Positions 16,074 to 18,697 of a stretch of 64,000 nt of DNA are shown here, piece by piece. The DNA is from Rhodobacter sp. 24-YEA-8. Lineage in GTDB: Bacteria; Pseudomonadota; Alphaproteobacteria; Rhodobacterales; Rhodobacteraceae. The stretch covers positions 943,001-1,007,000 of the forward strand of contig NZ_FNSK01000001.1 of NCBI RefSeq assembly GCF_900105075.1. The letters are read 5' to 3'. Every line of letters begins with the position of its first letter. Within the stretch, counting starts at the first letter, position 1. Position numbers and translations under genes: made by a program. Under the pieces are notes generated by a model. The model saw only the letters and a list, made by a program, of their open reading frames with translations. It ran no database searches and had not been told where the DNA came from.

Positions 16074-17585
16074 ATGCTCGATCTGACCTATACGCCCCCC
16101 GTTCCGAAAGTTATCGCCGGTGCGAAACATGACTGGGAACTGGTGATCGGGATGGAGATCCATGCCCAGGTCGCCTCGAATTCCAAGCTGTTCTCGGGGG
16201 CCTCGACCACCTTCGGCGCCGAGCCGAACACCAATGTCAGCTTTGTTGACTGCGCGATGCCAGGCATGCTGCCTGTGATCAATGAATTCTGCGTCGAACA
16301 GGCGGTCCGCACCGGGCTGGGCCTTAAGGCGGAAATCAACCTGCGCTCGGCCTTTGACCGCAAGAACTATTTCTACCCGGACCTGCCGCAGGGCTATCAG
16401 ATCAGCCAGCTCTATCACCCGATTGTGGGCGAGGGCGAAGTTCTGGTCGAAATGGGCCCGGGCGTCGCGCGTCTGGTCAGGATCGAGCGCATCCACCTCG
16501 AACAGGATGCCGGCAAGTCGATCCATGACATCGACCCGAACCTGAGCTTTGTCGATTTCAACCGCACCGGTGTTGCGCTGATGGAAATCGTCTCGCGCCC
16601 CGATATCCGCGGGCCGGAGGAAGCCGCAGCCTATGTCGCCAAGATGCGCCAGATCCTGCGTTATCTCGGCACCTGTGACGGCAATATGCAAAACGGCAAT
16701 CTGCGGGCCGATGTCAACGTCTCGGTCTGCCGCCCGGGCCAGTATGAGAAATACCAGGCGAGCCAGGATTTCAGCCATCTCGGCACGCGGTGCGAGTTGA
16801 AGAACATGAACTCCATGCGCTTCATCCAGGCTGCGATTGATTTCGAGGCCCGCCGCCAGATCGCCATTCTCGAAGATGGCGGCGAAGTGGTGCAGGAAAC
16901 CCGGCTCTACGATCCCGATAAGAACGAGACCCGCTCGATGCGCTCGAAAGAAGAGGCGCATGATTACCGTTATTTCCCATGCCCCGATCTTCTGCCGCTG
17001 GAAATCGAACAGGCCTGGGTCGACGGGATCGCGGAATCGATGCCCGAACTGCCCGATGCCAAAAAGGCGCGGTTCATGTCGGATTACGGGCTGACCGATT
17101 ACGACGCCTCGGTGCTGACGGCTGAACTGGAAAATGCCAGCTATTTCGACGCGGTCGCCAGGGGCAGGGATGGCAAGCTCTCGGCCAATTGGGTGATCAA
17201 CGAGCTGTTTGGCCGGCTGAAAAAGGAAGGCCAGGAAATCGGCGAAAGCCCGGTATCCAGCGCCCAGCTTGGCGGCATTGTCGATCTGATTTCCGCGAAT
17301 GTGATTTCGGGCAAAATTGCCAAGGATCTGTTCGAGATCGTCTGGACCGAGGGCGGCGACCCGGCGGTTCTGGTCGAGGAACGCGGCATGAAGCAGGTGA
17401 CGGACACGGGTGCCATTGAGGCGGCGGTCGATCAGATCATCGCTGAAAACCCCGCCCAGGTTGAAAAAGCCAAACAGAACCCGAAACTTGCAGGCTGGTT
17501 CGTAGGCCAGGTGATGAAGGCCACCGGCGGCAAGGCGGCCCCCGGTGCGGTCAACGATCTGGTGATGAAAAAGCTCGGCCTCTGA
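16074..17585 (+). CDS. gatB: Aspartyl/glutamyl-tRNA(Asn/Gln) amidotransferase subunit B
   Basis: 503 residues with all GatB hallmarks: [56 protein letters not shown] and the C-terminal YqeY-like tail. GatB binds the mischarged tRNA and phosphorylates its Glu or Asp so that GatA-derived ammonia can amidate it. gatC and gatA are not adjacent, the usual case in alphaproteobacteria. The ATG at 16074 follows GCAGAGGTGGACT. Confidence 0.98.
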
Positions 17586-17602
17586 GGCACGGCCAAAGGG
17601 TG

Positions 17603-17618
17603 GTTGCCTTCGGGCAAC
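17603..17618 (+). terminator. Stem-loop after gatB
   Basis: GTTGCC-TTCG-GGCAAC is a six-pair stem with a UUCG loop, 18 bases after the gatB stop. There is no U-tract, so it is at best a weak terminator or an RNA 3' stabiliser. Confidence 0.45.
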
Positions 17619-17704
17619 AGAAAACAGACAGGCTCCGGCATGGCTTGACCGCCCCGGGGCCTGTGTTAATTTTCGGCCCAGGGGCGTGAAACCGTCGCTC
17701 CGAT

Positions 17705-17765
17705 GGCATGGGGACGACCCCGTTGCCTCAGGTTCTGCCCGGGACGGCCCGGCTCTTCTGGAGGC
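17705..17765 (+). promoter_or_regulatory. Guanidine-II (mini-ykkC) riboswitch upstream of gdx
   Basis: Two hairpins with ACGR loops lie just before the gene. Hairpin 1 is GGCATGGGG-ACGA-CCCCGT(T)GCC (17705-17727), and hairpin 2 is CCGGG-ACGG-CCCGG (17739-17752). Paired stem-loops with ACGA/ACGG tetraloops are the diagnostic of mini-ykkC RNAs, which bind guanidinium and precede SugE/Gdx exporters. The Shine-Dalgarno GGAGG is at 17760-17764. The segment GCCTC at 17725-17729, partly inside hairpin 1, is complementary to GAGGC at 17761-17765. Ligand-stabilised hairpins would therefore free the ribosome site. Confidence 0.88.
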
Positions 17766-17774
17766 ATGGCCGTA

Positions 17775-18089
17775 ATGGCATGGATTTTTCTGATTGTTGC
17801 CGGGGTGCTCGAGGTTCTCTGGGCCTATAGCATGAAACTCTCGGATGGGTTTACGAAGCTTTGGCCCAGCGTCATCACGCTGGTGGCGATGGTGTTCAGC
17901 TTCGGGCTTTTGTCACTGGCGATGCGGGTGCTGCCTCTGGGCACCGCCTATACGATCTGGACCGGGATCGGTGCGGTCGGGGCGTTTGTGGTCGGGATCA
18001 TATTCCTGCACGAGCCTGCGACGGCGCTGCGCATTCTTGCCGCCTGTATGATCGTCGGTGGTCTGATCCTGATGAAGCTGTCCTCCTGA
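17775..18089 (+). CDS. gdx: Guanidinium exporter Gdx (SugE), SMR family
   Basis: 104 residues with four transmembrane helices. The first is MAWIFLIVAGVLEVLWAYSMK, with the essential Glu of SMR transporters. The motif LPLGTAYTIWTGIGAVG is of the SugE/Gdx subtype rather than EmrE. The protein works as an antiparallel dimer and exchanges protons for guanidinium. The start at 17775 gives the usual Gdx N-terminus; an in-frame ATG at 17766 is only one base after the Shine-Dalgarno. The upstream guanidine-II riboswitch supports the substrate assignment independently. Confidence 0.95.
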   Translation: MAWIFLIVAGVLEVLWAYSMKLSDGFTKLWPSVITLVAMVFSFGLLSLAMRVLPLGTAYTIWTGIGAVGAFVVGIIFLHEPATALRILAACMIVGGLILMKLSS

Positions 18090-18121
18090 CCGCAGGAACG
18101 GGCTGACAATCTACCATCACC

Positions 18122-18145
18122 TGGGGCGCGCTGATGGGCGCCCCA
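18122..18145 (+). terminator. Hairpin downstream of gdx
   Basis: TGGGGCGC and GCGCCCCA pair over an eight-base loop, 33 bases after the gdx stop. The following bases (CAACATA) lack a U-run, so termination is likely but unproven. Confidence 0.5.
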
Positions 18146-18262
18146 CAACATAGGCTGCCTGATGCGGTAATGGGGCAGATTACGGAAAAACCGTTTTGTG
18201 ATTTGGACTTACAGAGAAGAATTCACTAAACTGCCTGCAAGAAACCAAAGCCGGAGAGCAGG

Positions 18263-18697
18263 ATGCAACGGTTCGAATATAAGGTTGTTCCGGCGCCCCG
18301 CAGGGGCGAAAAGGCGCGTGGCGTCAAATCCGCGGAGGAGCGTTTCGCGCTGGCCCTGAGCACGGTGATGAATGAGCTGGGCGCCGAAGGCTGGGACTAT
18401 GTGCGCGCCGACAGCCTGCCTTGTGATGAGCGTTCGGGTCTGACCGGCACGAAAACCAGCTTTCAGAACATGCTGGTCTTTCGCCGCGAAATCCTTGCCG
18501 AGGCGCCGCGCGCTCCGGTATTCACGCGGGCTGCGGTGGCGCCTGCGGCTGCGCCCGCAGAGCCTGCGCCCGCGATCCCCGTTGCCGCCGCCCCCGAGAC
18601 TGCCGCCGTTCTGGCCCCGGTTCTGCATGCCCAGCCCCGTGAGGTGAATTCTGCGCCCTCGCTTGGTCCGGCGCGACCCGAAGTCGCGGCGGAATAG
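18263..18697 (+). CDS. DUF4177 domain protein
   Basis: 144 residues. The first 75 contain the DUF4177 pattern: MQRFEYKVVPAP at the start, then LSTVMNELGAEGWDYVRADSLPCDE and a closing LVFRRE strand. The C-terminal 65 residues are Ala/Pro-rich and low complexity, probably a flexible tail. The function of the family is unknown. The ATG at 18263 follows CCGGAGAGCAGG. It converges with the aminotransferase gene, ten bases apart. Confidence 0.82.
   Translation: MQRFEYKVVPAPRRGEKARGVKSAEERFALALSTVMNELGAEGWDYVRADSLPCDERSGLTGTKTSFQNMLVFRREILAEAPRAPVFTRAAVAPAAAPAEPAPAIPVAAAPETAAVLAPVLHAQPREVNSAPSLGPARPEVAAE

Follow-up and report, generated by a model that had tools for sequence, protein, structure and literature searches.

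In riboswitches of the guanidine-II class, guanidinium binds the loops of two hairpins and favors a loop-loop complex between P1 and P2, and the ribosome site opens. The off state varies among published accounts, which, in the excerpts available, place it in an anti-Shine-Dalgarno (anti-SD) sequence in the linker, in a helix called P0, or in a stem overlapping P2. An anti-SD in the linker or in a P0 helix has been proposed for the class in excerpts of four articles (PMC9561414, PMC9094411, PMC7544219, and PMC9300104), one of which (PMC9094411) credits the idea to Reiss and Strobel (2017). For Gloeobacter violaceus, an excerpt of Huang et al. (2017; PMC5486947) proposes a stem overlapping both P2 and the ribosome-binding site (RBS) and mutually exclusive with the folded riboswitch. 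For Escherichia coli, an excerpt of a further report (PMC13064478) describes a strain in which a deletion of 20 bp (−30 to −11) covers P2 and gdx is expressed constitutively.

Here, we describe a locus in a 64,000-nucleotide stretch of Rhodobacter sp. 24-YEA-8 (the window, meaning the whole of the DNA analyzed). Because two ACGR hairpins stand just before a Shine-Dalgarno (SD) sequence and an exporter-type gene, we read it, from the sequence, as a translational ON riboswitch of the guanidine-II class before a guanidinium exporter-type gene, with a probability of about 0.9; that a riboswitch of this class controls gdx is nearly certain. The features of the locus are as follows, with the basis of each call in parentheses.

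17645-17672, plus strand: promoter-like TTGACC-16 nt-TAATTT (TTGACC in seven of eight congener leaders)
17705-17727, plus strand: hairpin P1, GGCATGGGG-ACGA-CCCCGTTGCC, with loop ACGA at 17714-17717 and up to nine pairs, one U bulging from the 3' strand (sequence, folds)
17706-17752, plus strand: guanidine-II (mini-ykkC) aptamer, RF01068 (covariance model, 37.1 bits)
17725-17729, plus strand: GCCTC, candidate anti-SD formed by the 3' foot of P1 and the start of the linker (exact complement of 17761-17765)
17728-17738, plus strand: linker from P1 to P2, 11 nt when P1 is full (sequence)
17739-17752, plus strand: hairpin P2, CCGGG-ACGG-CCCGG, with loop ACGG at 17744-17747 (sequence, RF01068 alignment)
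17744-17749, plus strand: ACGGCC, loop and 3' strand of P2, proposed partner of 17768-17773 (six pairs, folds)
17760-17764, plus strand: Shine-Dalgarno GGAGG, 10 nt before ATG 17775 (sequence)
17768-17773, plus strand: GGCCGT, proposed anti-P2 element between the SD and the start codon (folds, congener pairs)
17775-18089, plus strand: gdx-type SMR exporter gene, 104 amino acids (PF00893, SugE model, structures, alignment)

The aptamer match is well beyond chance. Its score exceeds the gathering score of 32, its E value in a search of the whole window is 0.00086, and it is the only gathering-level match of RF01068 in those 64 kb; it is also the single match found in the strain's own genome (5.0 Mb), on the scoring of 150 of 697 first-look candidates. 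A preliminary description, made from the letters of this DNA, had named a guanidine-II riboswitch placed just before gdx and had suggested a covariance search. That search returned the match at 17706-17752, the ACGA and ACGG hairpins can be read directly, 22 bases lie between the end of P2 and ATG 17775, and the gene that follows is an SMR gene by profiles and structures; class, position, and target are thus borne out. The two hairpins are GC-rich, the 11-nt linker falls within the range of 7 to 40 nt that an excerpt of PMC7544219 gives for the class, and the element lies, as class members do, near the ribosome site of a gene for guanidine export or metabolism. When 17580-18300 was searched permissively for a second Rfam family, isrG alone appeared, with a chance-level 13.1 bits where the gathering score is 100. 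Among the 13 genomes of the genus, the strain's own included, eight carry an RF01068 match at an E value of 0.001 or less and seven carry one that exceeds the gathering score; of the 394 genomes in the family search, 65 have a match, which passes the cut-off in 52.

A leader that is no more stable than its shuffles (z = −0.46) is what could be expected of an element that no longer works and persists as a conserved relic or a constitutive leader. We consider such a relic highly improbable, since the score exceeds the gathering threshold with both loops intact, P1 is retained in the congener leader L004 by way of a U-G to G-U change, and over-cut-off matches recur in the seven genus genomes just mentioned. 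The riboswitch is an intact guanidine-II element of the ordinary kind, and the locus is otherwise one of ordinary guanidine efflux control.

The gene product carries the SMR domain (PF00893, 100.2 bits against a cut-off of 23.7), and SugE (NF008512) is the best of 22 NCBIfam models at 117.6 bits. Because that score misses the curated equivalog cut-off of 126 bits, the protein is Gdx-type and not a certified SugE. Over residues 1 to 103, it matches the structures 8vxu (E = 5.9e-33) and 6wk5 (E = 2.9e-32), the second of which we take to be Gdx-Clo, and it shares 53% identity with E. coli Gdx. The binding-site residues G10, E13, W16, S42, Y59, and W62, presumably those that define Gdx, were found in an alignment of 18 sequences that includes E. 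coli Gdx, with E13, W16, S42, Y59, and W62 invariant throughout. The protein is a probable guanidinium exporter, to judge by these sequence comparisons; among its close Gdx relatives are proteins of 98% identity in "Paracoccus sp. IB05" and 80% in Pseudogemmobacter bohemicus. The start codon is most likely ATG 17775, which aligns with residue 1 of both E. coli Gdx and 8vxu. Two other starts were rejected: ATG 17766 comes one base past GGAGG, and the residue-1 alignments favor 17775; the reading frame from ATG 17703 would cross the aptamer.

Upstream of gdx lies gatB (16074-17585). Past its end are a perfect UUCG tetraloop hairpin, GTTGCC-TTCG-GGCAAC (17603-17618), whose 3' arm could alternatively pair with GTTGCC of P1 (17722-17727), and, at 17628-17673, an 11-bp stem, ACAGGCTCCGG / CCGGGGCCTGT, with a loop of 15 followed by GTTAATTTT. 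This stem forms in the fold of 17590-17850 and, with GTTAATTTT, looks like a terminator by sequence and folding; a terminator scan covering loops of 3 to 8 did not report it, and a sigma-70 consensus scan reported no promoter at 17645-17672. Because the promoter-like TTGACC lies inside the terminator-like loop, the end of gatB and the start of gdx may overlap. The octamer GAAACCGT (17688-17695), immediately 5' of the aptamer, is common to six of the eight congener leaders. The next gene past gdx (18263-18697) matches DUF4177 weakly, at 23.3 bits with the cut-off at 25.

For the off state, the preliminary description had offered a two-state model in which GCCUC, from the P1 foot and the linker, masks GAGGC with its SD until ligand-stabilized P1 takes GCC and frees the SD. 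The complement that it named is exact (17725-17729 with 17761-17765) and extends to six pairs, as TGCCTC:GAGGCA with the added U-A. Unlike the aptamer, however, the competing pairing is not beyond chance, since, among 134 ribosome sites of other genes from this genome, 38% pair with the linker as well or better. Four leaders are closely alike (L001, L008, L010, and L004), and the linker helix is kept in L008 and L010; in L004/L042, one C is deleted, leaving GCTC for GCCTC, with the pairing of P2 to the RBS intact in L004 and its Gdx protein 98% identical. The more remote congeners L002, L006, L007, and L013 showed no such helix.

The folds support this two-state model only in part. Without ligand, the P1 core has a probability of 0.96 to 0.99 in folds beginning at 17690 or 17700 and of 0.85 in 17660-17820, and the P1 foot has a probability of 0.69 in 17690-17800 and 1.0 in 17700-17790. 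In three of the four stretches folded, the foot stands at 0.66 to 0.71, which leaves room for a switch, but with core and foot mostly formed before any ligand arrives, P1 formation would be at most a partial one. GCCUC:GAGGC is also compatible with P2 and the P1 core, the energy being −42.0 kcal/mol whether or not these are enforced, and its conflict with P1 is limited to the three lowest P1 pairs. When GCCUC was blocked, the SD stayed shut in 17690-17800, 17700-17790, and 17672-17820; the helix ACGGCC:GGCCGU then had a probability of 1.0 in the first two stretches and 0.05 in the third, where other pairings took over. When GGCCGU was blocked, the linker helix formed at 0.95 to 1.0, so that the two helices could, on these folds, be redundant locks. 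The pairing itself thus stands and can form, whereas its role as a switch thrown by P1 is weakened, and as a conserved lock it has against it a base lost in L004, no counterpart in four congeners, and no excess over controls in the family leaders treated below. A mutation of the linker/P0 anti-SD of Pseudomonas aeruginosa that leaves expression constitutively on, in an excerpt of PMC9561414, speaks for such a lock. We consider it doubtful that the linker helix is the main off state here.

We give about even odds to a different main off state, suggested by folding and sequence, in which the ribosome-binding region invades P2. In the minimum free energy (MFE) structure of 17690-17800, P2 is open, ACGGCC (17744-17749) pairs with GGCCGU (17768-17773), and the SD lies inside a CUCU-UCU-GGAG hairpin. 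At 37°C, the predicted probability of the P2:RBS helix is 0.77 to 0.79 in 17690-17800, 0.98 to 1.0 in 17700-17790, 0.67 to 0.69 in 17660-17820, and 0.54 to 0.56 in 17590-17850; that of the linker helix, likewise in the unbound fold, is 0.14 to 0.21 in the first of these stretches and 0 in the second. Against P2 invasion, the linker structure is the MFE of 17590-17850, by 0.3 kcal/mol, and 22% of the RBSs of the 134 other genes pair equally well with P2 of this locus. In the congeners, the P2:RBS helix has six pairs in L004 and L008 and five in L010, is replaced by GACGGC:GCCGTC in L007, and is absent from L002, L006, and L013. The linker lock is, by predicted folding and by comparison, less favored than the P2 lock.

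In the mechanism that we propose, the ribosome-binding region would, without ligand, invade P2 through ACGGCC and GGCCGU, holding the SD in the internal hairpin and masking one of the two ligand-binding loops; the linker helix would act as a weaker or redundant lock. By analogy with the class, ligand binding would keep P2 folded and stretch the linker, and both locks would open. Kissing loops and ligand lie outside the model of RNAfold, and the bound state was approximated by enforcing P1 and P2. Under that constraint, and with the linker single-stranded or not, the SD of this locus is 0.19 to 0.43 unpaired, against 0.23 to 0.26 when folding freely; over the 66 family leaders, enforcing P1 and P2 moves it from 0.28 to 0.36, or to 0.42 if the linker is also kept single-stranded, and the enforced hairpins alone raise it by more than 0.1 in 23 leaders and lower it in 10. 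Because these modeled ON states leave the SD shut, we infer the opening of the RBS from the class.

The family leaders derive from 70 matches, from which L073 and L088 (no credible start or second hairpin) and L054 and L083 (leaders the same as L034 and L081) were dropped. The resulting 66, nearly all from different genera, precede gdx (27), PACE-like genes (35), or other genes (4); the congeners L002, L004, L006, L007, L008, L010, and L013 were kept outside the family statistics, which ignore kinship. Outside the family, 29 of 50 class matches were retrieved and 23 alphaproteobacterial leaders used, leaving out near copies (L097 and L112) and leaders with a start at least 45 nt past the P2 loop (L093, L098, L099, and L118). 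The control set of other-gene RBSs consists of those 134 of 303 mechanical open reading frame calls, all from one genome, that have an SD motif. The threshold score of 14 for a strong helix was set post hoc, after the data had been inspected.

Across the 66 family leaders, pairing of the P2 core is 3.3 kcal/mol stronger with its own RBS than with the 134 other-gene RBSs (t = −7.4), and that of the P1 core is 2.2 kcal/mol stronger (t = −5.3); the linker is 0.5 kcal/mol worse with its own RBS, and the 5' flank with the P1 5' strand is 1.2 kcal/mol worse. Strong helices that include the loop CG occur in 16 of the 66, against a mean of 7.3 with the RBSs of other genes (none of 300 draws reaches 16) and 5.8 with dinucleotide-shuffled RBSs (none of 100 has as many), whereas linker helices number 11 against 12.3 expected from the RBSs of other genes. 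The 27 gdx leaders account for nine of the loop-CG helices, against 2.7 (other genes' RBSs) and 3.0 (shuffles), a count that is not independent, as L003, L036, L078, and L090 are alike and about six lineages are represented. P2 is predicted to be open in 40 of the 66 leaders, compared with 24.0 (18 to 31, 30 draws) when the RBS comes from another gene and 31.0 (19 to 37, 30 draws) with shuffled tails. The corresponding values for P1, 20 against 16.4 (11 to 21) and 14.4 (11 to 18), count against a P2-specific reading. When RBSs are swapped among the family leaders, loop helices are just as frequent (16 or more in 81 of 300 draws), which points to a complementarity to the conserved core and not one specific to each locus. 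The effect of such a swap on the P2 pairing energy is significant in the whole family (z = −4.2; 0 of 2,000 and 0 of 5,000 draws) but neither within the gdx leaders (z = −1.2; 573 of 5,000) nor in the 23 leaders of other families (z = −0.02; 2,431 of 5,000).

The excess differs from group to group. The 35 PACE-like leaders have three P2 helices with the loop CG against 3.5 with the RBSs of other genes, and P2 is predicted open in 20 of them against 11.4 (8 to 18). The effect is partial in the 23 leaders from other families of Alphaproteobacteria: seven have a loop helix, against 2.6 with other RBSs (3 of 300 draws) and 2.7 with shuffles (0 of 100), and P2 is open in 13, against 8.1 (4 to 12) with other RBSs and 10.4 with shuffles, whose range of 8 to 14 is not exceeded. 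Relatives at other gdx loci number at least 533, and of the best 80 we scanned 78 (two congeners were excluded); 40 had two hairpins by pattern, 35 of them distinct, by their titles mostly from beta- and gammaproteobacteria and controlled by shuffles only. These 35 show no effect: a loop helix occurs in one, against 1.6 with shuffles, and P2 is open in 16, against 16.7. The off state of our locus is plausibly lineage-specific. Covariation between the fourth loop base and the RBS was sought over 97 loci and set aside for too few cases: GGTCG occurs seven times with ACGA/ACGA loops and once with ACGA/ACGG, and GGCCG occurs twice with ACGA/ACGG and once with ACGA/ACGA.

Some arrangement other than the P2 or the linker helix is, in our estimate, unlikely to be the main off state. 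The form of it that we examined, in which local or upstream pairing (the CUCU-UCU-GGAG hairpin or a 5'-flank P0 helix) chiefly masks the SD and the named helices are minor, we hold to be improbable. With both locks blocked, the SD is still only 0.29 to 0.38 unpaired; in the congener L002, the 5' flank could take part in a GGCAG:CTGCC helix; and in the 23 leaders of other families, own-RBS preference lies in the 5' flank and P1 5' strand and not in P2 (8 of 5,000 swaps do as well). P0 is also the published model for P. aeruginosa in an excerpt of PMC9561414. In the 66 family leaders, however, helices between the 5' flank and the RBS number 5, against 7.7 in controls.

Returning to P2 invasion, a wider statement may be ventured, tentatively and at less than even odds: in the Alphaproteobacteria, the RBSs of guanidine-II leaders may carry an anti-loop, part of the reverse complement of the conserved hairpin core GGACGRCC, that unfolds a ligand-binding hairpin, mostly P2, in the off state. 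If so, ligand and ribosome site would compete for the same loop, and the expression platform would differ from the linker anti-SD model.

About half of the family leaders (35 or 36 of 66) precede a PACE efflux transporter instead of gdx. All 18 full-length proteins scanned match NF033664 (PACE), 16 from the family (L011, L012, L017, L018, L020, L021, L023, L026 to L029, L031, L032, L034, L035, and L037) and two from other families (L113 and L115); the remaining 20 family members are represented by about their first 40 residues. These PACE proteins may export guanidinium. Among the literature matches listed, none linked PACE to guanidine or a riboswitch by title or start of abstract; "pace" in PMC12186494 and PMC12930504 is an author's name. 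A urea amidolyase associated protein (UAAP1, TIGR03425) follows the riboswitch at L014 (687-1484, minus strand), and the peptides at L016 and L019 start in a way that resembles it.

Among the known systems, the E. coli gdx (sugE) leader resembles ours in its P1 loop ACGA, its P2 loop ACGG, its short linker, an SD soon after P2, and its gdx target, and its unbound MFE likewise is predicted to have P2 open and P1 closed. The partner of P2 differs: in the E. coli MFE, P2 is joined to a stretch spanning the start codon (GGGAC:GUCCU) and to a GCC next to the SD, whereas at our locus the partner is GGCCGU, between the SD and the start codon. The E. coli deletion that covers P2 acts as would be expected if the off state needs P2, by analogy, though it could act otherwise. 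The P. aeruginosa leader is, according to an excerpt of PMC9561414, likewise a translational ON switch with an anti-SD; mutants there support a P0 helix in which the 5' flank and the linker pair with the SD, whereas in the family studied here neither linker nor flank pairing exceeds controls. Because the two locks, linker and P2, depend on different bases, and a sister leader has naturally lost one base of GCCTC, our locus and its relatives offer a directly testable contrast between them. The closest likeness in idea is the stem proposed for Gloeobacter violaceus, which is the same as the P2 invasion that we propose; that proposal concerned one sequence, and the present comparison extends over 66 and 23 alphaproteobacterial leaders.
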